Assembly: GCF_009735625.1 (NCBI RefSeq)
Contig: NZ_CP046244.1
Location: forward strand, 930,001 to 994,000
Source: Moorella glycerini
GTDB lineage: Bacteria > Bacillota > DSM-521 > Neomoorellales > Neomoorellaceae
DNA length: 64,000 bases
Direction of reading: 5' to 3'
Shown here: one piece after another, positions 8,301-24,326 of the stretch
Numbering within the stretch: position 1 is the stretch's first letter
Layout of the letters: every line of letters starts with the position of its first letter
Made by a program: the position numbers and the translations under genes
The notes under the pieces: generated by a model
What the model was told of the DNA's origin: nothing
What the model saw: the letters and a program-made list of their open reading frames with translations, nothing else
The model's database searches: none

Positions 8301-8825
8301 TTATCCTAAAGCTTTCAAGAATAACACTTTATCGTCCTGTCCATCCCCCAGCCCCTCTACAACCGCTTTGATCCCCCGGGAGGCTAATTCTTTTTGCCGG
8401 TTACTGAGATGAGCCAGTATATCTTCTTTCTTACCAAAGCGGCGGGCCCCTGTAGTACAGGCTGAGCTACAAGCCGGCTCTTCTCCTTGTTGCAGCCGTT
8501 CCCAGCAAAAAGTACATTTTACCGGCTCATTGAAAAGGGAATTGTAGTTAATGGCCTCGTGCGGGCAAGCAGCTACACATAATTTGCATCCCAGGCAATT
8601 ATCCCGCTCCCATAAAACGATCCCATCTTTATTTTTAATGAGGGCACCGCCGGAACAAACCGCGCAACAAGCCGGCTGCTCACAGTGGTGGCAGGAATAA
8701 TGGCGACTCCCATCCACCTTCAAGCGGGGTAAGGAGTAATTGGTGTTGCCAGCTTGCCGGCAGGCTATAGTGCAAGCCTGGCAATTAATACATAAAGCAC
8801 TATCCACCAGCAGGACATAATCCAT
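8301..8825 (-). CDS. Four-cluster 4Fe-4S ferredoxin subunit, DmsB/PhsB-like
   Basis: This 174-aa protein starts at the ATG at 8825, which overlaps the stop of the molybdopterin gene and sits behind GGAGGGGAGGG. Four cysteine groups are visible: CINCQACTIAC, CHHCEQPACCAVC, CLGCKLCVAACP and CTFCWERL followed by ACSSAC. This is the four-cluster electron-transfer subunit typical of DMSO/thiosulfate/polysulfide reductase systems. No membrane anchor subunit follows, so the complex with the upstream catalytic subunit is probably soluble. It is the last gene of the ten-gene run. Confidence 0.88.
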   Translation of the reverse strand: MDYVLLVDSALCINCQACTIACRQAGNTNYSLPRLKVDGSRHYSCHHCEQPACCAVCSGGALIKNKDGIVLWERDNCLGCKLCVAACPHEAINYNSLFNEPVKCTFCWERLQQGEEPACSSACTTGARRFGKKEDILAHLSNRQKELASRGIKAVVEGLGDGQDDKVLFLKALG

Positions 8826-10936
8826 CATTTCCCTCCCCTCCCCGGCAGGGCCCTGGATATACGGCACTGGAGATTTTTATGCATAAAACCGCCCCCGACG
8901 GGATCGGTAAGAGCTGGGAAGAGAGAATTGGCCGGCTCCCGGCCAAAGACCGCCTGGCCGTAATAGGGCTGGGTAAAGACACAATTAGGTGGTAATCCCG
9001 CTACCGGGCGGGCAGGTAAAGTAATGGCGCCATAGGCCGTCTCGACAATAAGTTCTTCGCCCGGGCGAATACCCAGGGCCGCTGCCAGGTCAGCATTAAT
9101 TTCCAGGCAGGGCTCTTGCAAATCCCGCGCCCAGCTGCTGTACTGGCACTGGGTATGGTAGTGATAAGCCACCTTGGCGGTACTTAGCAGGAAGGGGTAA
9201 TCGGTAACCTTTTCCCGGCTGTTCCCGGGAGCTTGCAAGACATCCTGGAAATAAGGGTAACGAGCAGCCAGTATTTTCGCATCCATTTGTTCCAGCTCTA
9301 CCTTGCCGGAAGGAGTTGGGAAGCTCTTATCTTCATATAGGCGCCGGCGGGGCTCCTGACCAGCAGGAAAAGGATAGCTTATTCCCCCGGCACTAGAACG
9401 TAAGGCCGCAATAGTAATGCCCTTGATAGACGGTGTAAACTCACGCTCCAATTCCCAGCTTGAGGCCGGGTCAGGCGGGAAATATTCGGCCGGTAAATGC
9501 AAGCGCCTGGCCAGGAGCCGGAAAAATTCAGCTGCCGATTTGGCTTCTCCTGGCGGTTCCAGGACAGCTTCCCGCCACTGCAGGACACGATTAACACTGG
9601 CCTGGGCGGAAGCTTCCTCCAGCCAGTGGGTGGCCGGGAGGACAATATCAGCACAGGTTGCCGTATCATCCATTAAGAGGGTATGGCTGATTACCAGGTC
9701 AAGTTTCTCCAGGGCCGCCCGCATCTGCCGGGAAGCCGGCCAGGTAACGGCCGGATTACCGGCTACGTAGAGGACTTTAATCTCCCCCCCTAACATGGCC
9801 TCATAAAATTCTTGCGCGTCCCGTTTTTTTTCCGGCTTAGATACCAGCTCTGGCGGAATCAGGCCCTGGACTTTACCATAATCGACGATGTGGGAAATAA
9901 TCCCGCCCCCGGGTTGCCCGATATTACCCAGGATGGCCATCAAGGCCTCAAAGGCCAGCAGGGCACCGGTCCCATTACTGGCCGTTGCCAAGCCCCGGCC
10001 GGGGTAAAAAAGACCCGGTTTGCGGTTAGCCAGGTCCCCGGCCAGTTGCTCGATGGTCGCGGCTGGAATTCCGGTAATTGCCTCCGCCCTCTCTGGTGTA
10101 TATTCCCGGACGGCTACCGCCAGGCCGGCAAAACCCCGGGTAAAGCCAGCCACAAACTCCCGGTCATATAGTTCGCGGGTAATGATAATGTGGAGCAGGG
10201 CCAGTCCCAGGGCAGCGTCCGTACCCGGCCGGATTGGGATGAACTGGTCCGCCTGCCTGGCTGTATCGGTCTGGCGGACATCGATAACAATGACTTTGGT
10301 GCCCCGGCGCCTGGCCTCCTGCACCCAGTGGAACTGGCCGGCCTTGGTCTGGGCCAGGTTATTACCAGCTAAAAGGAGGAGCCTGGCCTCCATTACATCC
10401 GCCAGGGGATTAGGAGTTGCAGCTGAGCCAAAAAGGGAAATCCGGGCCCGCCGCTCTGATTCATAGCATATAGGGGACGTGCCATAGGAATTCAGTCCCG
10501 TGAGTTCAGCAAAAATACCATGAATAAACTTGCTATGGGACCCCCCGATTTTAGAAATAATAGCAGCCACCGCAGCATTGCCGTAAGTTTCTCTAGCCTG
10601 CTCCCACCGGCCGGCAATCAGGTCCATGGCTTCTTCCCAGCTCAGGCGACGGAAATGGCCCCGCTCCTTTTTTAAGGGATAAAGGACCCGGGCCGGGCTG
10701 TTTAAAATCTGGGCGGTTTCCATGGGTTTGGGGCAAATGTGCCCTTTATTCCAGGGATTATCCGGGTCACCATAAATACCCGCCAGCTTCCCCCGGGCAT
10801 CCAGGGCAACTAGCAGGCCACAGCCGCCGTTGCAAAGGCCACAAACACTGCGCACCAATCTTCTGGCTTCACTGCTCCCGCTAACTTCCTGCCGCCGGGC
10901 CGGCCGGATATAGCGTGCTAATAGATTAGAATACAT
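8825..10936 (-). CDS. Molybdopterin oxidoreductase catalytic subunit (MopB family)
   Basis: This 703-aa protein has the N-terminal 4Fe-4S motif C32-x2-C35-x3-C39-x28-C68. Molybdopterin-guanine-dinucleotide regions follow, and a dinucleotide-binding C-terminal domain lies at about 585-690. Cys157, in the GTSPICYES stretch, is a plausible Mo or W ligand, as in polysulfide/thiosulfate reductases. No twin-arginine signal is seen, so it should be cytoplasmic. The substrate is not clear: thiosulfate/polysulfide reductase-like is the nearest fit, but hydroxylases and transhydroxylases share the fold. It overlaps both neighbours in the operon. Confidence 0.85.
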   Translation of the reverse strand: MYSNLLARYIRPARRQEVSGSSEARRLVRSVCGLCNGGCGLLVALDARGKLAGIYGDPDNPWNKGHICPKPMETAQILNSPARVLYPLKKERGHFRRLSWEEAMDLIAGRWEQARETYGNAAVAAIISKIGGSHSKFIHGIFAELTGLNSYGTSPICYESERRARISLFGSAATPNPLADVMEARLLLLAGNNLAQTKAGQFHWVQEARRRGTKVIVIDVRQTDTARQADQFIPIRPGTDAALGLALLHIIITRELYDREFVAGFTRGFAGLAVAVREYTPERAEAITGIPAATIEQLAGDLANRKPGLFYPGRGLATASNGTGALLAFEALMAILGNIGQPGGGIISHIVDYGKVQGLIPPELVSKPEKKRDAQEFYEAMLGGEIKVLYVAGNPAVTWPASRQMRAALEKLDLVISHTLLMDDTATCADIVLPATHWLEEASAQASVNRVLQWREAVLEPPGEAKSAAEFFRLLARRLHLPAEYFPPDPASSWELEREFTPSIKGITIAALRSSAGGISYPFPAGQEPRRRLYEDKSFPTPSGKVELEQMDAKILAARYPYFQDVLQAPGNSREKVTDYPFLLSTAKVAYHYHTQCQYSSWARDLQEPCLEINADLAAALGIRPGEELIVETAYGAITLPARPVAGLPPNCVFTQPYYGQAVFGREPANSLFPALTDPVGGGFMHKNLQCRISRALPGRGGK

Positions 10937-12206
10937 TGGCCACTACCCTCCCCCACCCTTGCTGTGCAGGGTTACGGAATTGTTGCCACAGCCTGGCTAC
11001 CCCGAAATTACCTTGAATAAATTCTTTTTCGTGACCCTCTATTACTGCCCCCCTGGCTATAAGCCCGGTTATAACTCCAGCTCCCCGGAGATCACCAATT
11101 AAAGTCATCCCCGCCAGGCGACCCTTCCTGGTAACAATTTTGCGGTAAGTCATTCTTGTTGAGTCTAAAGTAAAGTATTCGCGATCATCAACACCTGTAG
11201 CTGCCGGCAGGCCGGCACTGGCCAGGGGTAAACCACCTATTTCCGTGGCGTTGACAGCCAAAGATCCCCTGTGCTCCCGTGGCAGACCCGCCATATTATA
11301 TCCAGCCACCCTGCCCTGGGCGGCAGCACTCGGCCAAACGGCCACTATACCCCTTTCGCCCCGGGCCAGGTCGAAATGTTCGGCCACATCACCGGCAGCA
11401 TAAATACCCGGTAAACTGGTAGCCATATGGTCATCAACTATAATCCCGGCGTTGATGTCCGCCCCGGCATCCGCCAGCAAGTCATAGTTAGTTTTGACTC
11501 CTACTCCTACTACTACCAGATCGCAGGGGATAACCCGGCCGTCATCCAGGCTGACCCCGGTAACCTTATCCCCATCCAGGATGGCTGTAACCTGCCGGCC
11601 TAATGCTAAGTCGATACCCCTGGCCCGTAAAGCTATTGCTATCAGGCTGGCGCCCCGCTCGTCTAAAGCCTGGGGCAGGAGATAGGGTAAAAACTCCACA
11701 ATAGTTACTGCCAGCCCTAAGCCCCGCAGGGCGGCAGCAGCTTCCACCCCTACCAGGCCGCCGCCGATAACGACGGCTTGCCGGCAATGAGCAGCAAAGG
11801 ACTTTAACTGGCGGGCATCCTCCAGGTTACGGAAGGTAAAAACGCCACAGGCTTCCCGGCCGGGAATGGGCGGTATCCGGGCCGCCGCCCCGGTAGCAAT
11901 GAGCAAACGGTCATAAGGAACTTCTTCGCCGCCGGCCAGGACTACCACCCCGGAGGCCGGCCGCACTTTAACGGCCCGCCGGCCCAGACAGGTCCTGACG
12001 CCCAGGGCCTCATAGAAAGAAGGAGGCCGGATCCACAGCCCTTCCTCCTGGATTTGCCCTTCAAGATAATAAGGCAGCAGGCAGCGCGAGTATGGTGGCC
12101 CTGTTTCCGTGGAGATTAACGTAATCTTACCCCCTGGATCCTCGCAGCGGATGGCCTCCACGGCAAAAACAGCGGCGGCACTGTTCCCAACTATGACGTA
12201 GTCCAT
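10926..12206 (-). CDS. FAD/NAD(P)-dependent oxidoreductase, FNOR type
   Basis: The ATG at 12206 gives 426 residues and has GGAGGTGG upstream; an earlier in-frame start is less likely. An FAD-binding Rossmann motif opens the protein (YVIVGNSAAAVFAVEAI). A second NAD-binding motif, VVIGGGLVGVEAAAAL, lies near residue 150, and the FAD-closing motif YAAGDVAEH near 270. The family includes NADH oxidases and CoA-disulfide reductases. In several CO-oxidising Firmicutes a similar gene follows cooF-cooS, and the same order is seen here. It probably moves electrons between NAD(P)H and the Fe-S partners. It overlaps the CODH-like gene by 16 bp. Confidence 0.85.
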   Translation of the reverse strand: MDYVIVGNSAAAVFAVEAIRCEDPGGKITLISTETGPPYSRCLLPYYLEGQIQEEGLWIRPPSFYEALGVRTCLGRRAVKVRPASGVVVLAGGEEVPYDRLLIATGAAARIPPIPGREACGVFTFRNLEDARQLKSFAAHCRQAVVIGGGLVGVEAAAALRGLGLAVTIVEFLPYLLPQALDERGASLIAIALRARGIDLALGRQVTAILDGDKVTGVSLDDGRVIPCDLVVVGVGVKTNYDLLADAGADINAGIIVDDHMATSLPGIYAAGDVAEHFDLARGERGIVAVWPSAAAQGRVAGYNMAGLPREHRGSLAVNATEIGGLPLASAGLPAATGVDDREYFTLDSTRMTYRKIVTRKGRLAGMTLIGDLRGAGVITGLIARGAVIEGHEKEFIQGNFGVARLWQQFRNPAQQGWGRVVANVF

Positions 12207-13612
12207 CCTGCTGCCACCTCCTCTGCGGCGGAACCAGAATGGCAACTGGCACCGAAGAGCCCGGCCGTGCCCGGGCTGATAAAATTAGCCATCTGGCTGG
12301 CTAAGAAAACTTCAGCCCCATGGGCGATGACCGTTGCTATTCCCGGATAAGCCCGGCTACAGCCAATAACCGGCCAGTAAACTTTCAGCGGCAGTTTCCC
12401 TTGAACAGCCGCCGCCACTGCCAGTCCCCTGACCAGGCCCCGGCAACCGCCTAAATGGAAAACCTGCCCCATATAGCCGGCAGCAATCAATTCGTCCAGG
12501 CCACAACCACCAGCCAGGACGAGGAAACCTTCTTCCAGGAGCTGGCGAGCCAGGTTAACCGTCCCGGTGCCTTCACACAGGAAAAGCAAAGCTATCCCCC
12601 GCATCTCTTTAGCCAGGGCTTCTCCTGCCAGAACTTCCACCAGGTCTTGCTGCCAGCCCGTTAACAGGGAGTGAGGTTTAAACGCGTAATTACTGGAGAT
12701 TACCGGGCCTTCCTGATGGGCTGCCAGGGCTTGACGAATTAATTCCTGCGCCAGGCCTTCCCAATTGGAACCATCAGGTTTAATTTCATTAAGATTTACG
12801 CCCTTTATCCTGCTGCCGGTTAATTGAAAGGGGAGTAAGACACCGCTGGTGTCCGCTATAGCTACCAGGTCCACCACACCCGCCGCCATAGTTTCCCGCA
12901 GGACTGCTTCATTGCCCAGGTAAGGCAGCCCCAGCCGCCAGGCTAAATAATCCCCCTCGCGGCCGGCTGCTACAAGCTGGATGCCCCTGGCGCCATAGTT
13001 GTCTATTGGAGTAGCCGTGGCCGCAATTTGCTTTTTGATTGCTGCCGCCAGGTAGGGTCGGCTACCGTCAATAACGATCGATACTACTTCCGGACTTAAT
13101 AGACCCGGCCCGGCAGGAACTGTAGTCAATGAAGTTAAACCCAGGCTGTCATTGTATAGCTTCTCCTGCTGAGCAAGCCCGGCATAAAAGGCCGCCAGGG
13201 CTACGCGGATGGCCTTGAGTTCCAATTCTTCCCGCCTGCTGCTGCCGGGACGAGCAACCTGGGCTAAAGCTGAAACCATCTCGGCCCCTGCTGGTCCAGG
13301 CCATACACCCCTATCTTTCCACAGGCTTAATTTCCCGGCAGGAATAGTAGCTGCCACAGCAGTCTCCAGCTGCCAGCTTTCTTCCAAATAAAGGGCACTG
13401 CCGGCCAGGACCTTTTCTAAAGTAGACCGTCCCGCCAGATTATCAGCCCCGGCGCCGCAGGCACCCAGGCTGGCGCCATAACCAAAAGGATCAATGCGGC
13501 AAGGTCCCTGGGGACAGCGAGTACAACACAGGCCCAATTTCGCAAAACCGCACCTGAGCCCTTCAGGCTGGCGCCGGGGTGTTTCCGCCAGGATATTTTT
13601 GGAGTTGAACAT
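12191..13612 (-). CDS. Short CODH (CooS)-like protein lacking part of the C-cluster ligands
   Basis: This 473-aa protein is shorter than CooS (about 630). The N terminus keeps the B/D-cluster pattern: Cys21, 29, 30, 33, 38 and 52 in a GLCCTRCPQGPCRI context. C-terminal Cys346, Cys370 and Cys390 line up by context with C-cluster ligands 446, 476 and 526 of the Carboxydothermus enzyme. The equivalents of His261, Cys295 and Cys333 appear replaced: GHNP becomes GSRP, GICCTGNE becomes AAGREGDY, and VQCIMP becomes TSGVLLP. A normal Ni-Fe C-cluster is therefore unlikely and CO oxidation is doubtful. A CooF-like ferredoxin precedes it and an FNOR-type flavoprotein follows. The function is not known. 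Confidence 0.8.
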   Translation of the reverse strand: MFNSKNILAETPRRQPEGLRCGFAKLGLCCTRCPQGPCRIDPFGYGASLGACGAGADNLAGRSTLEKVLAGSALYLEESWQLETAVAATIPAGKLSLWKDRGVWPGPAGAEMVSALAQVARPGSSRREELELKAIRVALAAFYAGLAQQEKLYNDSLGLTSLTTVPAGPGLLSPEVVSIVIDGSRPYLAAAIKKQIAATATPIDNYGARGIQLVAAGREGDYLAWRLGLPYLGNEAVLRETMAAGVVDLVAIADTSGVLLPFQLTGSRIKGVNLNEIKPDGSNWEGLAQELIRQALAAHQEGPVISSNYAFKPHSLLTGWQQDLVEVLAGEALAKEMRGIALLFLCEGTGTVNLARQLLEEGFLVLAGGCGLDELIAAGYMGQVFHLGGCRGLVRGLAVAAAVQGKLPLKVYWPVIGCSRAYPGIATVIAHGAEVFLASQMANFISPGTAGLFGASCHSGSAAEEVAAGWTTS

Positions 13613-13624
13613 GCTAACCCTCCT

Positions 13625-14050
13625 TCACACCGCGAACGGCCCTTCAGCGTAGATTAAAGCCCCGGTAGGACAGGCATGGGCACAGGCCGGCTCCCCGCGA
13701 CCGCTACATAAATCACACTTCCAGGCCTTCCTCTTGCCGGGAAAAGGAAACACCGCCCCTAACGGGCAGACGGTAACGCACATCCAGCAGCCGACACATT
13801 GCTCCCAGTCGCTGGCAACTCCCCCCTCCGGAGTAAAATGCATGGCCCCACTGGTACAGGCTTTGAGGCAAAGCGGGTCCTGGCAATGGCCACAAACCGC
13901 AGGCCAGGCGCCTTCCCCGGCTGGCTGGACCTGGAGGCGGGGCCTGTTGCTAGAACCTGGAGCATTAGTACGGGTCTGGGCTTCAGAACAGGCCAGTTCA
14001 CAGGCCAGGCAGGCCAGACAACGCTCAGGGCGGACAAATAACTGTTTCAT
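13625..14050 (-). CDS. CooF-like four-cluster ferredoxin
   Basis: Starting at the ATG behind CAGGAGT, the protein has 141 residues. Cys groups are CLACLACELAC, CGHCQDPLCLKAC, CVGCWMCVTVCP and CDLCSGRGEPACAHACP, the pattern of CooF and HycB-like electron carriers. It sits 12 bp before the CODH-like gene, the usual cooF-cooS order. It is the likely electron partner of that protein and of the flavoprotein downstream. Confidence 0.85.
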   Translation of the reverse strand: MKQLFVRPERCLACLACELACSEAQTRTNAPGSSNRPRLQVQPAGEGAWPAVCGHCQDPLCLKACTSGAMHFTPEGGVASDWEQCVGCWMCVTVCPLGAVFPFPGKRKAWKCDLCSGRGEPACAHACPTGALIYAEGPFAV

Positions 14051-14072
14051 CGCTTTTACTCCTGTTCCCCTT

Positions 14073-14711
14073 CTACGACTCACCGGTGCTTTCTCCTATC
14101 CGTCGTCCCAATTCTCTTCCCAACTCCCTTGCCCGGGCCACCAGTCTTTCGTTATCACCGGCCCGGCAAAACATTTCTGGCTTTATTGCGTGGCTCCCAT
14201 AATACAAGGGGACATTGCTATAAGCACATTCTTCACCATACCCGCAAGAAAGACAGGGAGCATTGCCGGGAACCTGGATACTACCTACCAGGTTCATGCG
14301 ATACCAATTAAAAAAGTATCTCAGGTATTCTTCCACCCTGGTGGCATCGCGAAATCCTCCGGCTACCGCTATGCCAAACTTACCCTGGGTTAACATCACA
14401 CGATGCTTCAGGGGATAAAGCCTCTCTAAAAAAGTTTTCGTTAAGGCGTTTAATGAAAAAAAGGTGGGGAAGCCCCCGATGACAATCCCCCGGGCAGCTT
14501 CCACCTTGGCCAGGATTTCATTCATCCCATCCTGCTGGACACACCTGTTGGTAGCAGCGCATTTTAAACACGCCAGGCAAGGACGCAGGTGGTAACGGGA
14601 TAGCTTGATAAACTCTGTTTCCAGGCCGGTAGCGACAAGGATTTCCTGGATAACAAAATCCAGATTACTATTAACTATTGAACTGCCGCTAAAGCCGACT
14701 ACTAAAGCCAT
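14073..14711 (-). CDS. Iron-sulfur flavoprotein / NADPH-dependent FMN reductase family
   Basis: This 212-aa protein starts at the ATG after GGAGGCAAAAGAA. It has a flavodoxin-like FMN fold: VVGFSGSS at the N terminus and IVIGGFPTFFSLNALTKTFLERLYPL in the middle. It also has a compact cysteine motif CLACLKCAATNRC (C-x2-C-x2-C-x5-C), the signature of archaeal-type iron-sulfur flavoproteins (Isf). Further Cys pairs occur near residue 160 (CLSCGYGEEC). It probably passes electrons between ferredoxin and flavin within this operon; one possible task is reductive reactivation of the corrinoid protein. Confidence 0.8.
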   Translation of the reverse strand: MALVVGFSGSSIVNSNLDFVIQEILVATGLETEFIKLSRYHLRPCLACLKCAATNRCVQQDGMNEILAKVEAARGIVIGGFPTFFSLNALTKTFLERLYPLKHRVMLTQGKFGIAVAGGFRDATRVEEYLRYFFNWYRMNLVGSIQVPGNAPCLSCGYGEECAYSNVPLYYGSHAIKPEMFCRAGDNERLVARARELGRELGRRIGESTGES

Positions 14712-14753
14712 TTCTTTTGCCTCCACCGAAAACTACTTACATTACCCCTGCAA

Positions 14754-16394
14754 TTATACACCCGCCGGTCTTTCCTGAGGTATGCTCCCACAATCTTCCT
14801 CCAACTCCCGCGGCCCCACCAGGGAGAGGACCAGGCAGAAGCAGCCCACTACTACCAGGAAGGCCACCAGGCCAAAAAGCCCCATCTTATATAACCACCC
14901 GAAACGGGTAACAAGGAGCAGTACCATGGCTGCCGTCAGTATCCCGGCGCCCATAGCCAAGTTCTTCTTCCCAGCTGTAAGCTCGCCGCCTACTTGCCAC
15001 TGGCCGGCCTTTTCTACCAGCGTTACCATTATCAGGGCCAGAATGTTCATGGACATACCAAAGAATACCGGGTGGATGTTGAGGTAAAATTTGGCAGGGT
15101 CCCAGTGACCCAGGGCATACCAGGTGAGACCGCTGATAAAGCCTGCCGCCAGGGCGGCTACCGCTGCTCGCTTCGTGGCCAGGGGCCAGAAAAGGGCGGC
15201 TACTACCGGCGCAAAGGTCGCCCCGTTGCGGAGTGTCCAGGCAAATACATTCCACCAGGCAGCCTGCTCGCTACGGAGAATGCCAAAAATAATCATCATT
15301 ACCGTTAAAACTACCAGGGAAACCTTGGTGTAGTAAACCTTCTGAGCATCCGTTATCTTTGGGTTAATGGCGGCCATGGTGTCCCGTCCCAGACTGGTGG
15401 CCCCGGAAAACTGGCAGGGGGCACCCCACCCCAGGGCACAGGCCCAGACACCAAGGAAAAAGAGGCCTACCAGGGGAGCCGGTAAAACCTGCGCCAGGTA
15501 CAGGGGCACCTGTACCATGCCCCGGGTACCACCAGGGGCTACTACCGCCGCCGCCAGGCCGAAGAGCACGCCGAAGAAGATAAAGATAATGTTGGCGGCA
15601 AAGGCCATGAGCAAACCTTTACGCCCTTCCTCCACCGTCCGGCAGGAGAGGGCCATCTGGAAGGCTGCCTGAGCCAAAAGTACGTTAATTAAAAAGGTGG
15701 CAAACCAGGCGATGATTAACTGCAAACCCACCCCGTCCAGGCTGAACATGGCCGGCTTGCTAGCCGCCAGCTGGGCCAGGCCGCTGAAGCCGGGTTTGAT
15801 AAAGAAGGCTATGCCCCCTATAATAAACATAATGGCAAACATGATGTTATTGGCCGTCTGGGTGACCACTACCGACCACATCCCGCCGGACTGGAGATAA
15901 ATTAGCAATAACAATGCCGTAATAACTACCGCCATGGTAATAGGTATATGGGTAAAGGCAGAAACAGCCGAGGCAAAGGCCAGGGTTGTAGCCACCGACC
16001 ACATGGGGAAGGTAAAGGCGGTAATGGCGCCCGCCACACCCAGGGCCACGCGACCAAAATGGTCGCCAATCAACCCTGATATGGTCACCATCATCCGTTT
16101 CCGGAAATTACCGATGAGAAGCAAGGCAATAATCAGGACATGGACCATTTCGGCCACACCGTACCACCCGGCCGAAATGCCTTTTACATAGGAAAGTTCC
16201 ATGATGGCAATAAATGAGGAGCCGGAGAATAATCCCGTGATACAGACAAAGACCATCCACGGCCGGAAAGAACGGCCACCGACAAAGTAGCCTTCGCTGC
16301 TCTGGGCTCTACGGCGTACCACGTTGCCCAGAAAAATCAAGACGGCCGTATAAACTATGGCTAACCCAATGACCCAACTACCAGTAGCATTCAT
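14754..16394 (-). CDS. Sodium:solute symporter (SSS family), copy 1
   Basis: A GGGAGGT site six bases before the second ATG selects 16394 as start (546 aa). About 13 membrane spans are visible, with SSS features such as GLFSGSSFIAIMELSYVKGISAGWYG and the GWGAPCQFSGATSLGRD block. It is strongly similar along its whole length to the symporter at 21554-23200. Lying between the methyltransferase and redox genes, it probably imports the methylated substrate of this operon. The substrate is not identifiable from sequence. Confidence 0.85.
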   Translation of the reverse strand: MNATGSWVIGLAIVYTAVLIFLGNVVRRRAQSSEGYFVGGRSFRPWMVFVCITGLFSGSSFIAIMELSYVKGISAGWYGVAEMVHVLIIALLLIGNFRKRMMVTISGLIGDHFGRVALGVAGAITAFTFPMWSVATTLAFASAVSAFTHIPITMAVVITALLLLIYLQSGGMWSVVVTQTANNIMFAIMFIIGGIAFFIKPGFSGLAQLAASKPAMFSLDGVGLQLIIAWFATFLINVLLAQAAFQMALSCRTVEEGRKGLLMAFAANIIFIFFGVLFGLAAAVVAPGGTRGMVQVPLYLAQVLPAPLVGLFFLGVWACALGWGAPCQFSGATSLGRDTMAAINPKITDAQKVYYTKVSLVVLTVMMIIFGILRSEQAAWWNVFAWTLRNGATFAPVVAALFWPLATKRAAVAALAAGFISGLTWYALGHWDPAKFYLNIHPVFFGMSMNILALIMVTLVEKAGQWQVGGELTAGKKNLAMGAGILTAAMVLLLVTRFGWLYKMGLFGLVAFLVVVGCFCLVLSLVGPRELEEDCGSIPQERPAGV

Positions 16395-16471
16395 TACCAT
16401 ACCTCCCTTTCCCTCAGACCTAGGGCCTCTAGCTCGTAGCGTAATACCTCGCAGGCTAGAATAAAAACCAT

Positions 16472-17323
16472 CTATGCCTCCTGGTAATGGCGATAATCCT
16501 CAAGATAACGCATGGCCCACTCATCCCGGCCAGCAAGCAAGTCGGCAGCCCTGATACTCCGGCGGATCCCCCTTGCGATAGGATCAACAATCAAGGCCGT
16601 CGCCCCGGCAGCTATGGCCTGGGCAAAAAAGGCCTTATTGATAGCCTGGCGATCGGGTAACCCGTGGGAAACATTGCTGGCCCCTAAAATCAGGTTTAAA
16701 CCTAATTCCTGGGCCACCAGGCGCATGGCTTCCAGGGTAATGACGGCTGCCTTTTGATCTGCTCCTACCGTCATGGCCAGGCAGTCAATAATAATGTCTT
16801 CCGGCCTGAGGCCAAAGGCGATAGCCCGTTCCAGGATATGCCGGGCTATGGCCAACCGCTCTCGCGGCTCCTGGGGGATGCCTTTTTCATTCATGCAGAG
16901 GCCAACGACTGCTGCCCCGTACTCTTTAACTACTGGTAAAATACGCTGTAAAGATGCTTCCTCGCCCGTTACTGAATTTACCAGGGCCCGGCCGTGGTAA
17001 GCCTTAAGGGCTGCCTGTAGGGCTTCGGGCTTGCTGGAATCAAGACATAAGGGTACATCGACAACATCCATTACCGCTCTAACCGCTTCCGGTAAAAGGG
17101 CAACTTCATCAACGCCGGCAGCCCCGACATTAACATCCAGCATATCGGCCCCGTTTTTTACCTGGGCTACGGCCTCTTCCTGGATTAAAGATAAATTACC
17201 TTCCTGGAGGGCCATGGCCATCCTTTTCCTGCCCGTAGGGTTAATCCGCTCGCCGATGATTACCGTGGGTAGGCCCGGACCAATTTCTACCTGTTTATCT
17301 TTGCGTGAAAGTATTGTCTTCAT
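16472..17323 (-). CDS. Pterin-dependent methyltransferase (DHPS-like, MeTr/AcsE-MtvA type)
   Basis: This 283-aa protein has the dihydropteroate-synthase-like barrel of methyltetrahydrofolate:corrinoid methyltransferases. It shows GERINPTGRKRM at the N terminus, DMLDVNVGA near 60, PLCLDSSKPEAL near 92, LVNSVTGE near 115 and GASNVSHGLPDR near 215. In acetogens these enzymes move a methyl group between a corrinoid protein and tetrahydrofolate. Its ATG directly follows the stop of the corrinoid gene, which makes it the second methyltransferase of a three-component demethylase. Confidence 0.9.
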   Translation of the reverse strand: MKTILSRKDKQVEIGPGLPTVIIGERINPTGRKRMAMALQEGNLSLIQEEAVAQVKNGADMLDVNVGAAGVDEVALLPEAVRAVMDVVDVPLCLDSSKPEALQAALKAYHGRALVNSVTGEEASLQRILPVVKEYGAAVVGLCMNEKGIPQEPRERLAIARHILERAIAFGLRPEDIIIDCLAMTVGADQKAAVITLEAMRLVAQELGLNLILGASNVSHGLPDRQAINKAFFAQAIAAGATALIVDPIARGIRRSIRAADLLAGRDEWAMRYLEDYRHYQEA

Positions 17324-17962
17324 TTAACTCACCTTCAGTAATTCATTGGCCACATCTACAGCTGCAGCCGCATCTTTACCATAACCATCGCAGCCAGCTT
17401 TCCTGGCAAACTCTTCCGTGATGGCAGCCCCACCAGCTATGATTTTTACCTTATCCCGCAGGCCGGCATCCTCAAAGGCTTTAACTGTCGCCGGCACATA
17501 GTTCAAAGTAGAAGTGATCAGGCAAGACATGGCAATAATATCCGCCTTATAATCCCGGGCCGCCTGGACAAATTTTTCCGGGGCAATATCAATCCCCAAA
17601 TTAATTACTTGAAAACCGGCACCCTCGAGCATCATGGCTACCAAATTTTTGCCGATATCATGGAGATCTTCTTTTACAGTGCCAATAACTATTACTCCCC
17701 GCGAGTTTGTTTCTGAAGCTGAAAGTAAAGGTTTCAGTATATCCAGGCCCGCGTGGGTAGCCTTGGCGGCAATCAACACTTCCGGGACATAAACCTCGTT
17801 GCGTTTAAATTTTTCCCCGACAACATTCATGCCGGCAATGATACCTTCATTCAGGATTTGTTGCGGGTCAAAGCCCTCCTCCAGGGCCCGGGTACAGCAT
17901 TCTTTAACTACATTTGGCTTATAGGTGATGATGGCATTTTTAATTTCCTCCAGGATGCTCAC
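17324..17962 (-). CDS. Methyltransferase corrinoid protein (MtvC/MtbC-like)
   Basis: This 212-aa protein has a B12-binding cap domain at about 1-85 and a Rossmann cobalamin-binding domain at about 88-210. The base-off signature DLHDIG, near residue 100, supplies the His that binds cobalt from below; SCLITST and GGAAIT complete the site. The GTG start overlaps the stop of the upstream methyltransferase by 4 bp and has GGAGGAG before it. It should carry the methyl group between the flanking methyltransferases. Confidence 0.93.
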   Translation of the reverse strand: MSILEEIKNAIITYKPNVVKECCTRALEEGFDPQQILNEGIIAGMNVVGEKFKRNEVYVPEVLIAAKATHAGLDILKPLLSASETNSRGVIVIGTVKEDLHDIGKNLVAMMLEGAGFQVINLGIDIAPEKFVQAARDYKADIIAMSCLITSTLNYVPATVKAFEDAGLRDKVKIIAGGAAITEEFARKAGCDGYGKDAAAAVDVANELLKVS

Positions 17963-19023
17963 GCTATCTCCTCCTTTTGCTGGGCGGCAATTTTGGTAGC
18001 CGAATATTCCCTCGCTGTTTTTAACATTGCCCTGACATTTGCATCGGGAGTTCCATAATCACACCCGACGGCATCAATGGAAAGCTTGTCATAAGGAGCG
18101 CCAATATCAATGATCCGTTTTACATCTCCGGCAATTTCTTCCGGCGAACAATTTAACATGCGGACAGGGTCGATGCGGGCATTGACAAAAACGTCTGGCA
18201 TGAGTTCCCGCAAACGTTTTAAATCCGTCATGGGACCTACTTCCAGGAAGGAGAGATTGTTAACCTTGGCATAACCCTCCAGCATATGATCGGCCTTGCC
18301 ACAATGATGGATGCCGAAGGGCTGTAAGGTTGCTGAAAGCCTGTTTTCGTAAGGGAGGACAAATTCTTCAAAGGCCTGGCGCGAGATCTGGACTACCGTA
18401 CAATCAGGCAAAACATACATTTCTGGCGGTGCCATGGGCGTAACTGACGAAGCCAGGGTGCCCGTCCGGCTTTTGACATAACGGGCCAGCTGGATAATGG
18501 TTTCCGTACAGATATTAAATAGATGATGCACCAGGTCGGGATTTTCAAAGAAATCGATATAGAGCTGGTCTCCCCGGATCTTTAAACCCAGGTTTAAAAC
18601 CCCGGTGGTATTAATGTTACCGGTGACCCGGCCATATTTTTGTTCCAGGTAATCCATTTGTTTGATAATTTCCGTCATGGGGTAAGCCTGGGTAATATCG
18701 GGTACTTTTAACTGGAAGATCTCTTCTTCTGATAAATTAGCCGGTACCGCCCAGGGAATGGCGTCATCAAAGAATTTAACTTCGCACCCAAAGACCTCCG
18801 GCAAAAGAACCATACCGTAATCAATAAAAGGTTCGGGTTCGGGATCGGGTTTCCCCATACCTACATCGCCAAAACGTTCATACAGGATACGCTGCTGTTT
18901 TTGAAAGGCATCTACCCGGTAGTCAGGATCATAATAGTACTGGCGGTTATAAGAAATACCGTAATTCTTATACCACCAGCTGGGATAAAAGCCCACTTTA
19001 GCGTTAATATATTTGGTGGCCAT
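17959..19023 (-). CDS. UroD-fold methyltransferase (MtaA/MtbA/MtvB-like methyl donor:corrinoid)
   Basis: The ATG at 19023 follows GGGGGTG and gives 354 residues. The uroporphyrinogen-decarboxylase-like barrel of MT1/MT2 methyltransferases is evident. A zinc-type signature His-x-Cys occurs in IHHCGKADH near residue 247, with a later Cys in AVGCDYGTPDANV near 330. As first gene of the operon, directly upstream of a corrinoid protein, it should demethylate the imported substrate. Vanillate-type O-demethylases of acetogens use this three-part plan, but the substrate here could equally be a methylamine, betaine or methyl thioether. Confidence 0.85.
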   Translation of the reverse strand: MATKYINAKVGFYPSWWYKNYGISYNRQYYYDPDYRVDAFQKQQRILYERFGDVGMGKPDPEPEPFIDYGMVLLPEVFGCEVKFFDDAIPWAVPANLSEEEIFQLKVPDITQAYPMTEIIKQMDYLEQKYGRVTGNINTTGVLNLGLKIRGDQLYIDFFENPDLVHHLFNICTETIIQLARYVKSRTGTLASSVTPMAPPEMYVLPDCTVVQISRQAFEEFVLPYENRLSATLQPFGIHHCGKADHMLEGYAKVNNLSFLEVGPMTDLKRLRELMPDVFVNARIDPVRMLNCSPEEIAGDVKRIIDIGAPYDKLSIDAVGCDYGTPDANVRAMLKTAREYSATKIAAQQKEEIA

Positions 19024-19063
19024 TTGGCAAACACCCCCTTCAGTTATCTGGTAATTAAATTTT

Positions 19064-19079
19064 TGCAAGAATCATGCCA
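19064..19079 (-). promoter_or_regulatory. Sigma-54 (-24/-12) promoter of the methyltransferase/CODH-like operon
   Basis: On the minus strand the sequence is TGGCATGATTCTTGCA, matching TGGCAC-N5-TTGCA with the invariant GG and GC correctly spaced. It lies about 40 bp before the first gene and downstream of three activator-type dyads. Confidence 0.88.
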
Positions 19080-19094
19080 GGGATGAAAAATAAA

Positions 19095-19119
19095 AAAATA
19101 CCTGACTTTCTTAGTCAGG
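19095..19119 (-). terminator. Terminator of the first sigma-54 activator gene
   Basis: The 7-bp stem CCTGACT/AGTCAGG (19101-19107 with 19113-19119) has a 5-nt loop and, on the minus strand, is followed by a T-rich run. It separates the activator transcript from the sigma-54 promoter just downstream. Confidence 0.75.
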
Positions 19120-19150
19120 CATAATTTATTTTCAGTATTTTTGACTTAAT

Positions 19151-19246
19151 TGGTGCGCGGATGTACCACTTTTAATATTAAAAACCTAAAAGCACTTTAA
19201 TTTCGCACTGGTACGCTAGGCTACCAAGTGGTGCTCTGCTGTACCA
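19151..19246. promoter_or_regulatory. Three 18-bp dyads, probable enhancer sites for the sigma-54 activator (set 1)
   Basis: Three copies fit the plan TGGTxC-N6-xxACCA: 19151-19168 (TGGTGCGCGGATGTACCA), 19209-19226 (TGGTACGCTAGGCTACCA) and 19229-19246 (TGGTGCTCTGCTGTACCA). They lie about 70-180 bp upstream of the sigma-54 promoter, the usual enhancer distance. The last two overlap the 3' end of the activator gene, so its C-terminal codons are also operator DNA. Confidence 0.7.
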
Positions 19247-21302
19247 GTCCATATTCGCGGGCCTTACGTAAAAGGGTGGAATGGGCTATCCCCAAACTTT
19301 CTCCCGCCCGCCTCAAGCTATGGTGCTCCTGCAGGGCCCGGGAGATAAGCTTTTTTTCTAATATCCGGGTGGCCTCATTAAGGGGAATTAAATCATCTAC
19401 GTAAATTGTTACTCCTCCCTGGCCTCGATCCTTACAGATATAGGCCGGCAGGGATTTACAGGTAATTACCTTTTCTTCCGTAGTTACCACCAGGCGTTCG
19501 ACCAGGTTCTCTAGCTCCCGGACATTTCCTGGCCAGGTATAGCTTATAAAAGCAGCAAAAACATCTTCCCCTAACTGCTTGTTTAAGCCGTAACGCTGGT
19601 TATACTTTTGTAAAAAAGCCCGGGCCAGGGGTAAAATATCCTCCTTGCGTTCACGCAAGGGTGGAATTTCAATGGGCACTACGTTAAGGCGGTAGTAAAG
19701 GTCCTGGCGAAATCTCTTTTCCGCCACCAGCTGGCGTAAATCCTGGTTGGTAGCAGCAATGATCCTTATATTGAGGGCAATCGGCTTACGCCCTCCCACG
19801 CGAAAAAGCTGCTGGTCCTGAAGTATCCGGAGCAATTTAACCTGTAAATTTAAAGGCATTTCCCCAATCTCATCCAGGAGAACTGTGCCCCCGTTAGCAC
19901 ATTCTAATAAACCTATTTTGCCCCCGCGTGTGGCGCCGGTAAAAGCCCCTTCTTCATAGCCAAATAGTTCGGATTCCAACAGATTTTCCGGGATGGCACC
20001 GCAATTAACCTGCACAAAAGGCCCGTTATGCCGGGGACTGGTACGGTGAATTATTTTGGCAATTACCTCTTTCCCTACACCTGATTCTCCTGTTAACAGG
20101 ACGGTGGAATCAACATGAGCCACCCTGATAGCCTGTTCTACAATCCGTTCCATCTGTTTGCTCTTAAATATAATTTTTTCTGTTTCTAATAAACGCGCCC
20201 GCAGTTCATTTAATTCTGTGGTGAGCCGGGCGGTCGCATCACGATTTTGCTCCAGTTCTGCCTGCAGGCGATTGAGCTCGGTCATATCGCGAATGTTGAC
20301 CACAACCCTGGCAATTGTTCCTTCTTCCGTAAATACCGGATTACCGGTAATCAAAACGTCCCGCCCTGCGGCTGTAATTACTTTGACAGTGGCTGGTTTT
20401 TTATGATGGGTTACCTGTTGAAAAATATCGTCAAGATATTTATTTTCCTGAAAGTTACATCCCGCCTCACCCAGGATACGCTCATAACTGGAATTAAAGC
20501 GTAAAACATGTTTATCCCGGCCCAAAACAACAATACCGTCATAAGAAGAAGCAATGATGCTTTCCAGTTCATTATTCAAGGCTTTAACGGCACTTAATTC
20601 ATTATAAGCATTTTCCAGGGCGGAAATATCCTGCAGTACGGCAACTGCTCCGGCCACTTTATTATTAAAATATAAAGGATTTTCGCTTAAAATAATAACA
20701 TTATCATTTAATATTACCCGTCGTCCATTTATCACCTGGTTGGCCTTAATATCTGTAAGCAAATCACCTTCAGGGAAGACATCTTTTATTTTTCGCCCTA
20801 AAATAGCTTTTGCCGGCATGCCAAGTATTTTTTCAGCCGCAGCGTTAAAGTGGATAATCTCTCCTTCTTCATTAACAGCTATAATACCATTCGGTACAGC
20901 TTGCAGGATAACTTCTAACTGATTTTCTGTTTCCTGGAGAGCCTCGTATACCTGGTTAATAAGACTAAGGCGAGTTAAAATTCCTTTCAGCTTCTGGTCA
21001 TTATCTACCACCAGGAGGCGTTCCAGGGGTAAATGAGCAACATCATGAAAGGGTGTATCTTCATGGATACTTACCAGATTACGATCCATTACTTCGACCA
21101 CAGGCGTATCAAAGCTTTTTCCTGCTCGCAAAGCCTTAATCAATTCCCGGATGGTAATTATCCCTACTATTTTGTCGTGTTCGCTTATTATAGGCGCACA
21201 GGTAAAGGGGCCACAGAGATAGATATCGGCTGCCTCGCTCAAGGTGGCATTGGCAGCTAAAGTTTGGGGTGTATGATACATAACTTGTTTAACGCGAAGC
21301 AT
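19221..21302 (-). CDS. Sigma-54-dependent transcriptional activator, CBS-PAS-PAS-AAA-Fis (copy 1)
   Basis: This 693-aa regulator has two CBS motifs (about 1-118), PAS domains at about 125-235 and 245-360, and a short coiled segment. The AAA+ domain (about 385-620) carries Walker A GESGVGKE and the sigma-54 contact loop GAFTGA. A Fis-type helix-turn-helix ends the protein (about 650-690). CBS and PAS domains suggest sensing of a nucleotide, redox state or small aromatic ligand. It lies upstream of the sigma-54 operon on the same strand and is the obvious activator. A -10 TATAAT (21335-21340) and -35 TTGAAT (21358-21363), 17 bp apart, precede it. Confidence 0.92.
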
Positions 21303-21553: not shown

Positions 21554-23200
21554 CTATTTGCCCGCCGGGCCTGCCTGGGGCCTGGCCTCCGCTACAGCTA
21601 AACTCTCTGCCCTTTCTTCTCCGGTAAAGGCAATTACCATGCAGAAGGCAGCAATAAAGATCAGGAAAAGGACCATGCCAAAAACGCCTTTAGCATAAAG
21701 CCAGGTAAACTGGTTAACAGCCAGGATGATTAATGCCAGGCCGGCAACCATGGCCCCGAAACCAACACTCCTGGCTGCTCCTTTCCCGGGTATCGCCCAG
21801 CGATAGCTGCCAGTCCTTTCAATCAAGGTAACCAGGGTTAAAGCCGAGACGTTAAAGATCATACCAATCCACACCGGGTGGATGTTCAGGTAAAACTTCG
21901 CCGGGTGCCAGCCGCCCAGGTGATACCAGGTTATACCAGAAACAAACCCGGCGACCAGGGCGCTTACAGCTGCCTTTCTGGTAGCCAGCGGCCAGAAGAG
22001 CACCCCGATGACGGGAGCAAAAGTGGCCCCATTGCGGGCCGTCCAGGCCAGGACATTCCACCAGGCGGCCTGTTCCGTGCGCAGGAAGCCAAAGATAATC
22101 ATTAAGCCGGTTAAAATTACCAGGGACCATTTGGTGTAGGCAACCATCTGCTTATCGGTAACTTCAGGATTCAGGGACGAAACTACGTCCCGTCCCAGGC
22201 TGGTGGCCCCGGAGAACTGGCAGGGAGCCCCCCACCCCAGAGCGCAGGCCCAGATACCCATGAAGAAGATGCCCACCAAGGGTGCCGGTAAAACCTGGGC
22301 CAGGTATCTGGGTACGGCTACCAGGCCACGGCCGACGCCGGGGGCTACCACCGCCGCTGCCATGCCAAAAAGAACGCCTAGGACGATAAAAACAATGTTA
22401 AATCCTGCTGCCCAGAGGAGACCCTTTTGTCCTTCTTCCGGCGTGCGGCAGGAGAGGGCCATCTGGAAGGCCGCCTGGGCCAGAAAGACGTTGACCAGGA
22501 AGGTGCCGAACCAGGCGAGGATTGTCTGCAGGCCAACGGTAGTCAGGCCGTACATGGCCGGTTTGGTCACCGCCAGCTGGGCCAGGCCGGCGAAGCCGGG
22601 TTTAAGGAAAAAGGCTACCAGACCGATTATAAACATCAAGGTAAAGGCCACGGTATTGGCCGTCTGGGTAAAGACCACCGACCACATGCCGCCAGCCTGC
22701 AGGTAAATTAGCAGGAGCAGGGCGCTGAAGATTACCCAGGTAGATAACGACATCCCTGTAAAGGCGCTCATGGCAGCGGCAAAGGCCAGGGCATTGGCGG
22801 TAGCGTACATGGGAAAGGTAAAGGCCGTGACAGCGCCGGCGATGGCCTTGGCCGTGCGCCCGTAGCGTTCACCGATCAACCCGGATACGGTCACTACCAG
22901 GCGTTTGCGGAAGGGTATAACAAAAAATAAGGCAATAATTATCACATGGATTAATTCAGCCACGCCATACCAGCCGGCAGAGATGCCCGTGGTATAGGCC
23001 AGTTCCAGGATGGCGATATACGAGGAACCGGAAAAAAGCCCGGTTATACAAACAGCCACCATCCAGGGCTTGAACTTACGGCCGCCCACCCAGAAGTCCT
23101 CACCGCGGGCGGCCCGGCTTCTGGCTACGTTGCCGGCAACAATCAGAGCGACTGTGTAAATGACAGCCATAAATAAGATCCAAAAAGCGTAGGTATTCAC
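21554..23200 (-). CDS. Sodium:solute symporter (SSS family), copy 2
   Basis: This 548-aa, 13-span transporter is a close paralogue of the one at 14754-16394, sharing the SGSS(Y/F)IAI and GWGAPCQFSGATSLGRD blocks. The start is GTG with GGGGGG upstream. It follows the OsmC-like gene and probably shares its transcript from the sigma-54 promoter at 24127. Copies 1 and 2 each lie in the control range of one of the two activators, suggesting duplicated uptake circuits for related substrates. Confidence 0.85.
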   Translation of the reverse strand: MNTYAFWILFMAVIYTVALIVAGNVARSRAARGEDFWVGGRKFKPWMVAVCITGLFSGSSYIAILELAYTTGISAGWYGVAELIHVIIIALFFVIPFRKRLVVTVSGLIGERYGRTAKAIAGAVTAFTFPMYATANALAFAAAMSAFTGMSLSTWVIFSALLLLIYLQAGGMWSVVFTQTANTVAFTLMFIIGLVAFFLKPGFAGLAQLAVTKPAMYGLTTVGLQTILAWFGTFLVNVFLAQAAFQMALSCRTPEEGQKGLLWAAGFNIVFIVLGVLFGMAAAVVAPGVGRGLVAVPRYLAQVLPAPLVGIFFMGIWACALGWGAPCQFSGATSLGRDVVSSLNPEVTDKQMVAYTKWSLVILTGLMIIFGFLRTEQAAWWNVLAWTARNGATFAPVIGVLFWPLATRKAAVSALVAGFVSGITWYHLGGWHPAKFYLNIHPVWIGMIFNVSALTLVTLIERTGSYRWAIPGKGAARSVGFGAMVAGLALIILAVNQFTWLYAKGVFGMVLFLIFIAAFCMVIAFTGEERAESLAVAEARPQAGPAGK

Positions 23201-23270
23201 TCACAGTTCCCCCCTGTAGCCTTGTTAAGATTTAATTCTCTCTAGTGAATGCCTTCCCCGATATCCACTT

Positions 23271-23729
23271 TTAATTACCGCTGGCTTCTTTTAAGAAGGG
23301 GTAAGGATACTCCTGGCCGTTAATTTTAAAAGCATACTCGATGGAACCGGCTGTCTTCATCATATTGGCTGCCGAACAGTACACCTCGTCAGCCAGCTTG
23401 ATGGCGTGGGCCACCTTGTCCGGCGGGATATTGGCCCCCTGGAAATGATAAACTACCCGCATATGGGTAAAAATTTTGGGATGGTCGGCAGCCCTTTCGC
23501 CTTCAACCGTAATGGTCAGGTCATCATAACTGACCCGCATTTTTTGCAGGATGTGGGTAACTTCGATACCGGTACAACCGCCCAGGGCCATAAGCATCAG
23601 TTCCATGGGCCGGGCACCCTGGTTCTCGCCACCATAGATGGGGCTGGCGTCCATGGCCACCCGGTGGCCGGCACCGTCATCCCCCACAAACTGCATCTTA
23701 CCTGCCCAGTTGACTGTGACTTTTGCCAT
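23271..23729 (-). CDS. OsmC/Ohr-family protein
   Basis: The ATG at 23729, behind GAGGAGG, gives 152 residues; longer readings run into a non-coding repeat. OsmC features are the N-terminal strand AKVTVNWAGKMQF, the first-Cys motif ALGGCTGIEV near 54 and the second at VYCSAANMMKTAG near 120. The family reduces organic hydroperoxides or binds small thiol-reactive ligands. In the same transcription unit as a symporter it may detoxify or bind the imported compound. That link is inferred. Confidence 0.85.
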   Translation of the reverse strand: MAKVTVNWAGKMQFVGDDGAGHRVAMDASPIYGGENQGARPMELMLMALGGCTGIEVTHILQKMRVSYDDLTITVEGERAADHPKIFTHMRVVYHFQGANIPPDKVAHAIKLADEVYCSAANMMKTAGSIEYAFKINGQEYPYPFLKEASGN

Positions 23730-24126
23730 CGAAATCATCCTCCTCTGGGTTATTCTACCCTGAAAATAACTTCGCTCCAGGCTGGCATTGTTTTTGCTCG
23801 CTCCCTGGTCCTCGCGGATCAGCCTACGGCTCAGCCTTGGGCTCGGGCGCCCAGCACTCACTAAACTCAGGTGCCTCCAAAGGTAGTGCGACTGCATAAA
23901 CCGAAGAACTGGTTACTGTAACTTGGTTACTGTGAGTGCTGGGCGGCCTATTCGGCATCCTTGCCTTTAGAATCCGGCCTTTGGCCTCTCTGTCCTCGGC
24001 CCCGCCCTCGCTCTCGGCACAGCCTGCGGCTGCTTAACCGCTCGGACCAAGTCGCTCGCTCCAAACAAATGCCAGCCGCGTTAGCGGCATAAAAGTCTTG
24101 TTACCGCTATCACTTATTTTGTAGAT
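23730..24126. repeat. Structured non-coding element in the leader between sigma-54 promoter 2 and osmC
   Basis: About 400 bp without a credible gene. It holds a perfect 14-bp inverted repeat (23848-23861 with 23932-23945, CGCCCAGCACTCAC) enclosing 70 bases. The 9-mer GCTCGCTCC is directly repeated at 23796-23804 and 24054-24062, and related AGCC(T)xCGGCT units lie between. It reads like a dispersed genomic repeat inserted in the 5' untranslated leader. A sigma-54-like sequence (TGGCATTGTTTTTGCT, 23783-23798) also faces right on the plus strand. Confidence 0.5.
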
Positions 24127-24142
24127 TGCAAAAATCATGCCA
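24127..24142 (-). promoter_or_regulatory. Sigma-54 (-24/-12) promoter of the osmC-symporter unit
   Basis: The minus strand reads TGGCATGATTTTTGCA, nearly identical to the promoter at 19064. It would give a transcript with a leader of about 400 nt before osmC. Confidence 0.85.
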
Positions 24143-24207: not shown

Positions 24208-24326
24208 TGGTCTGTTTGCGCACCAGTAATCCCGGTTATTTACTTTGTTCATGTGGTCACATTATAATTTAACCCCGTAAATTAATCCGGTGCAGTTTCA
24301 GACCGCTTCGGTGCAATTTTGCACCA
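24208..24326. promoter_or_regulatory. Three 18-bp dyads, probable enhancer sites (set 2)
   Basis: Copies at 24208-24225 (TGGTCTGTTTGCGCACCA), 24288-24305 (CGGTGCAGTTTCAGACCG) and 24309-24326 (CGGTGCAATTTTGCACCA). As in set 1, one is promoter-proximal and two lie close together across the 3' end of the activator gene. The half-site TGGTGC is shared with set 1. Confidence 0.68.

Follow-up and report, generated by a model that had tools for sequence, protein, structure and literature searches.

A shortened CODH-like protein whose former C-cluster site looks rebuilt around four cysteines, in a candidate demethylation operon of Moorella glycerini

Short CODH-like proteins (mini-CooS) have already been published (PMC8776680), as has a CODH-fold protein with a non-C-cluster site, CooS-V, which lacks CO activity (PMC9311411). 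CODH surveys have filtered out sequences with deletions in the C-cluster ligands (PMC6344411, PMC8776680), and such proteins may therefore be systematically overlooked. In the CODH/HCP literature examined, we found no published account of the ligand set described below, of a Cys at the HCP ligand position or of a link to a UroD/corrinoid operon. The protein concerned is encoded in what we call the window, the whole 64,000-nucleotide stretch of Moorella glycerini DNA that was analysed (NZ_CP046244.1, positions 930,001 to 994,000); for the comparison of its C-cluster positions we used the ligand roles given in PMC10502027.

12191-13612, minus strand: mini-CooS-like protein, 473 aa (ORF, domain, profile and model comparison)

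The reading frame is sound (ATG at 13612, good ribosome-binding site) and its product matches the Pfam Prismane/CODH family at 7e-24; its closest solved structures by sequence are CODHs, and a profile of three orthologues aligned by hhalign to 66 full CODHs with a probability of 100% (E = 3e-39). It scores 124.6 bits against TIGR01702, the curated CODH family, and so does not reach the cut-off of 478. The preliminary description had put it about 160 residues short of CooS, which agrees with 473 aa against mostly 590-655 aa in the CODHs compared; part of the shortening is a stretch absent between the B-cluster region and residue 85. At this length it fits mini-CooS / clade G, described as CODH-like proteins of >400 aa that stand apart from the standard clades: in the tree it falls outside the 66 sampled CODHs, on a very long branch whose exact placement is unsure. 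Mini-CooS branches run to 3 to 5 substitutions/site and join each other, in two separate, well-supported groups; because these branches are so long and meet each other, we conclude nothing beyond the two groups. An AlphaFold model built from a 24-sequence alignment (mean pLDDT 68, pTM 0.70) matches a CODH with Z 28.8 over 446 of its 473 residues (CODHs overall, Z 26-29 over about 450) and CooS-V on a par with it (Z 28.6), while class III HCP gives Z 26.1 with a much worse rmsd. We take the protein to belong to the CODH/HCP superfamily as a shortened and diverged form that would not be a CO dehydrogenase, a role as a CO enzyme being very unlikely. Among the matches listed there are at least three orthologues, counting the window protein itself, one in Moorella stamsii and one in a related-genus genome (G017), all in a single bacterial family; among 398 sampled genomes of the phylum, matches occur in the window genome and G017 only.

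13457-13552, minus strand: B-/D-cluster cysteines C21, C29, C30, C33, C38 and C52 (alignment)
12575-12577, minus strand: Cys346 codon, at CODH-II Cys446 (alignment, profile comparison)
12503-12505, minus strand: Cys370 codon, at CODH-II Cys476 (alignment, profile comparison)
12443-12445, minus strand: Cys390 codon, at CODH-II Cys526 (alignment, profile comparison)
13061-13063, minus strand: Ser184 codon, at CODH-II His261 (alignment; invariant in three orthologues)
12959-12961, minus strand: Arg218 codon, at CODH-II Cys295 (alignment; invariant in three orthologues)
12359-12361, minus strand: Cys418 codon, in GC[S/N]RAY, at CODH-II His561, HCP Glu494 and CooS-V Glu556 (ungapped register test, HCP motif of the same genome, literature)
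12353-12355, minus strand: Arg420 codon, at CODH-II Lys563 (ungapped register test; invariant in three orthologues)

The B/D cysteine pattern is intact, as first described: the six cysteines correspond to C39/47/48/51/56/70 of CODH-II with identical spacing (X7, X2, X4, X13). At the C-cluster, three of the six CODH ligands are kept by alignment and profile comparison, and these are the three positions to which Cys346, Cys370 and Cys390 had been assigned. The same description read the other three as Ser or Gly (His261), Arg or Ala (Cys295) and Ser or Gly (Cys333). Ser and Arg hold, Gly and Ala are not the aligned residues, and at Cys333 the ligand is lost as claimed but no residue aligns, the whole segment being deleted (a gap in the window protein, with Asp-Thr-Ser-Gly nearest to it; Ala-Leu in G017). 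No His or Cys replacing H261 or C295 was found in the profile alignment of mini-CooS against CODHs. The acid-base pair of Ni-CODH, Lys563/His93, is likewise missing: Lys563 has become Arg420 and His93 Tyr75 (non-His in G017 too, where the alignment is less sure), and the catalytic-His region is unconserved.

The gain of a cysteine is argued from the sequence that follows C390, LPLKVYWPVIGCSRAYPGIATVIAHG in the window protein and MPILVALNGLGCNRAYVSLALSVAYG in the G017 orthologue. When these two tails were slid ungapped over 44 CODH tails through 26 offsets, offset 0, which matches LP with LP, was the sole one to score above 0 (8.6 and 1.7 in the two orthologues; next best -2.1 and -4.6). In the HCP encoded by this genome, LP...SWFEQKA places an E at K-2, and a G follows at K+12, to be compared with C418, R420 and G432 of mini-CooS. 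The K-2 Glu serves the hybrid cluster as its seventh ligand (Mm Glu434, Dv Glu494; PMC10502027) and corresponds to Glu556 in CooS-V; among 51 CODHs this place is taken by Ser, His, Ala, Thr or Gln and in no case by Cys, while Cys418 is invariant in the orthologues. MAFFT alone favours a gapped alternative that places C418 elsewhere, and the nearness of the four cysteines is read from the sequence register only, because model residues 414-441, around Cys418, have pLDDT <50. With three ligands lost and one gained, the former C-cluster site looks rebuilt, offering four cysteines (346, 370, 390 and 418). Four cysteines are the usual set of an ordinary [4Fe-4S] cluster, and we therefore infer that the site most likely carries a nickel-free, all-cysteine cluster of the [4Fe-4S] type, with Arg218 and Arg420 beside it as a likely candidate anion site. 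The altered metal site of the preliminary description thus gains support from the ligand loss and from Cys418. That description had named as evidence against its reading an alignment in which other positions provide the His and Cys ligands of this site, and this applies in part: Cys418 sits at the HCP/CooS-V ligand position, and replacements for H261 and C295 were not found. Two memberships were considered and rejected: that of HCP, where Mm His193, Glu217, Cys261 and Glu434 are here Ser184, Arg218, deleted and Cys418, and that of the CooS-V type (clade D-1), where the C295 position has Arg218 instead of Glu and H261 and C333 are also lost.

The gene lies within a set of ten on one strand, spaced by -55 (about -16 if FNOR begins at ATG 12206) to 71 bp and preceded by an activator gene and a promoter:

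19221-21302, minus strand: sigma54 activator, CBS-PAS-AAA+
19064-19079, minus strand: sigma54-type promoter TGGCATGATTCTTGCA, about 40 bp before the ATG and kept at the same place in G017
17959-19023, minus strand: UroD-superfamily methyltransferase I, with His254-x-Cys256 and Cys336 (numbering of the 369-aa ORF from 19068)
17324-17962, minus strand: corrinoid protein, MtgC-like
16472-17323, minus strand: corrinoid:tetrahydrofolate methyltransferase, PRK07535 family
14754-16400, minus strand: sodium:solute symporter
14073-14726, minus strand: FMN reductase-family protein, with a C-x2-C-x2-C-x5-C motif as in iron-sulfur flavoproteins
13625-14083, minus strand: CooF-like 4Fe-4S protein, 16 Cys
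10926-12206, minus strand: FNOR, NAD(P)H/FAD oxidoreductase, likely start ATG 12206
8825-10936, minus strand: Mo/W-bis-pterin oxidoreductase, FDH-like
8301-8867, minus strand: FeS partner of the Mo/W protein

A terminator-like hairpin separates the activator gene from the TGGCATGATTCTTGCA promoter, and G017 has the same activator with a one-mismatch sigma54-type promoter at the same place; across the window such promoter matches are no more numerous than chance would give, so that position and conservation carry the weight. The ten-gene set is present in three genomes (window, M. stamsii and G017), with the FMN protein last and a transposase-like gene inserted in G017. The CooF and FNOR partners that had been ascribed to the protein are both there, adjoining mini-CooS. 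FNOR has as its closest solved chain 8c0z_E, subunit E of an aldehyde oxidoreductase complex, a match that favours an adaptor role of CooF-FNOR towards NAD(P). The catalytic residues of FDH are a His after the Cys ligand and Arg333; the Mo/W protein has a CYESE motif, with Tyr after the Cys ligand at the place of the His and Val at that of the Arg, and judged by these residues it is not a formate dehydrogenase. An aldehyde ferredoxin oxidoreductase gene lies elsewhere in the window (33940-35664, minus strand). A neighbour unit (21554-24142, minus strand) has its own sigma54 activator (24298-26403) and a TGGCATGATTTTTGCA promoter (24127-24142); it encodes a second symporter, with 63% identity to that of the operon, and an OsmC-like protein. 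Compared as DNA with M. stamsii (L031), positions 8301-21302 are 98.7-100% identical in the genes from activator to CooF and 94.1-95.5% in those from mini-CooS to the FeS protein, a mosaic divergence that suggests recombination with a breakpoint near 13600.

What the operon might act on is suggested by its relatives. In the UroD family, proteins that bind zinc through His-Cys-Cys are methyltransferases acting on S or Se (PMC10418091), and His254, Cys256 and Cys336 are found in the UroD protein of the window, G017 and G143, the third place being Val in the G062 relative; no solved UroD homologue matched the operon's protein, so that the pattern is unanchored by structure and an S-/Se-methyltransferase is suggestive only. 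In G143 and G062, which belong to two other families, the relatives of the UroD operon (75% and 71% identical) adjoin a TauE sulfite exporter, the sole TauE of G062; none of the mini-CooS, CooF, FNOR and Mo genes was seen beside them in the stretches read. Relatives of the CooF-FNOR-Mo-FeS module occur without mini-CooS in G355 and G393, where they come with a SulP permease and TauE, and in G023 a gene for sulfur transport (PF04143) and one for NrfD are found close to the Mo and FeS genes. The TauE/SulP neighbours of both operon halves elsewhere are therefore two separate pointers to sulfur compounds. From these neighbours in other genomes, not from this operon, the substrate is probably a methylated, sulfur-type compound. 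The operon may encode a thermophilic demethylation pathway that has not been described before; a literature search on methanesulfonate demethylation found nothing relevant. Within G355 and G393, the Mo/W relatives that adjoin sulfate permease and TauE genes are 50% identical. Genome G000 has about 29 UroD-family matches where three relatives have 8-13; its set of methyltransferases is unusually large.

We hypothesize, with about an even chance of being right, that mini-CooS is a nickel-free, all-cysteine Fe-S protein serving as redox partner in a demethylation operon. This reading starts from the observed residue pattern, fold, operon, operon conservation and sigma54-type promoter, and adds to them a presumed cluster type, anion site, direction of electron flow and substrate class. 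The operon would import a methylated, probably sulfur-type compound; its methyl group would pass to the corrinoid and on to THF, and the rest of the substrate would be redox-processed with the Mo/W protein. Electrons would travel between NAD(P)H and mini-CooS by way of FNOR and CooF to the D-/B-clusters and the four-cysteine site, where Arg218 (in the place of C295, once the unique-Fe ligand) and Arg420 (in that of Lys563), facing the side that formerly held Ni and the unique Fe, would hold an anion. Mini-CooS would in this way carry electrons between NAD(P)H and the breakdown of a substrate of the S-methyl or sulfonate type. The preliminary description had already proposed a function outside CO oxidation, which is supported by the changed H261, C295, C333 and K563; as possible functions it named electron storage and the reduction of another small molecule, and the operon points to the breakdown of a methylated, probably sulfur-type substrate. 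A bolder version, which we consider rather doubtful, has the CODH scaffold turned into a Ni-free enzyme, with a [4Fe-4S] cluster held by four cysteines and an anion pocket formed by two arginines, performing NAD(P)H-linked redox chemistry on the sulfur remnant (sulfite-, sulfonate- or thiol-type) of the demethylated compound; the superfamily would then have a third chemistry next to those of the Ni C-cluster and the hybrid cluster.

Alternatively, no chemistry takes place at the site and the dimer is a pure electron wire that links CooF to the Mo/W, FMN or corrinoid protein, for example for reductive activation. This has a real if minority chance: a four-Cys site is coordinatively complete, and the operon is without RACo, which is encoded elsewhere in the genome, while the related G143 operon carries RACo instead. 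Conserved Ser184, Arg218 and Arg420 at the cavity nevertheless suggest a selected pocket; the genome has three RACo matches elsewhere, and NAD(P)H by itself is ill suited to reducing Co(II). Two RACo-like genes of genome G000 lie at C1:755963-756733 and 457132-457893; their matches are reported as having a stop codon in frame and an open frame of 616 aa. A hybrid-cluster-type site, with an Fe-S-O cluster as in CooS-V that reduces hydroxylamine, NO or similar in stress defence, appears improbable to us. The shared superfamily, a ligand at the HCP Glu position and a fold similarity to CooS-V equal to that to CODH all speak for it, but the His261 and Cys333 equivalents and the Glu ligands of HCP and CooS-V are all absent here, the operon content is catabolic without an NO or stress gene, and the genome encodes its own HCP. 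CODH is typically partnered by CooF and FNOR (PMC6344411), as a cryptic Ni-CODH with ligands from elsewhere, a C-cluster and slow CO oxidation for this pair would also be; with H261, C295, C333, K563 and the catalytic-His region changed, and CODH-II C295A/E variants losing both Ni and CO oxidation (PMC9311411), we give it very little credence, and substitute ligands were rejected when no His or Cys was found in place of H261 and C295. Purifying selection acts on mini-CooS (93% identity to the M. stamsii orthologue, dN/dS 0.25), and ten of its eleven cysteines are kept in the 39%-identical G017 orthologue, above identity expectation (binomial P = 5e-4). A decaying CODH pseudogene retained in the operon is hardly credible: divergence from G017 is fast, mini-CooS being the least conserved operon protein (~39% vs 42-85%), but the frame is open in three genomes, the cysteines persist, and the dN/dS largely refutes this reading.

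A second type of mini-CooS, of 504 and 482 aa, is encoded in the Moorella bin G008 (L119) and the distant genome G293 (L121):

L119:123-4935, minus strand, and L121:10033-14669, plus strand: type-2 module of CooF, mini-CooS, 249-aa FeS protein, 215-aa protein and FNOR

Like the window protein, type-2 mini-CooS is short, has intact B/D cysteines, comes with CooF and FNOR and lacks H261, C295 and K563; unlike it, C333 is kept and Cys418 is missing, and the site would offer four cysteines too, by a different route. The type-2 modules carry two extra proteins, the FeS protein and the 215-aa one, which is without any Pfam or NCBIfam family. In G008 the module is preceded by a UroD gene and apparent tripartite (Tct-like) transporter genes.

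Among described systems, the mini-CooS of Thermosinus carboxydivorans (WP_007288589.1) and clade G resemble the window protein in being short CODH-like proteins of >400 aa, and clade G is likewise linked to FNOR and CooF; in clade G-1 the second C-cluster Cys is mutated (PMC8776680, PMC6344411). By its published description the Thermosinus protein has a complete cluster motif, whereas the window protein differs at H261, C295, C333 and K563 and has the additional Cys418. CooS-V of Carboxydothermus hydrogenoformans (clade D) shares the CODH fold, the lack of a C-cluster and a K-2 ligand (Glu556; PMC9311411), but has lost only C295 (to Glu) of the six C-cluster ligands and keeps H261, C333 and its full length. 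The class III HCP, Mm HCP, shares the superfamily, the shortness and a cluster ligand at the Cys418 position (Glu434; PMC10502027), but keeps His193, Glu217 and Cys261 and has no D-cluster, whose cysteines the window protein retains. The site proposed here would add a third active-site type to the CODH/HCP superfamily, where the evolution of the Ni C-cluster versus the Fe-S-O cluster is debated, and Cys418 offers a clean single-residue test of it, at a position that is Ser or His in CODH and Glu in HCP.
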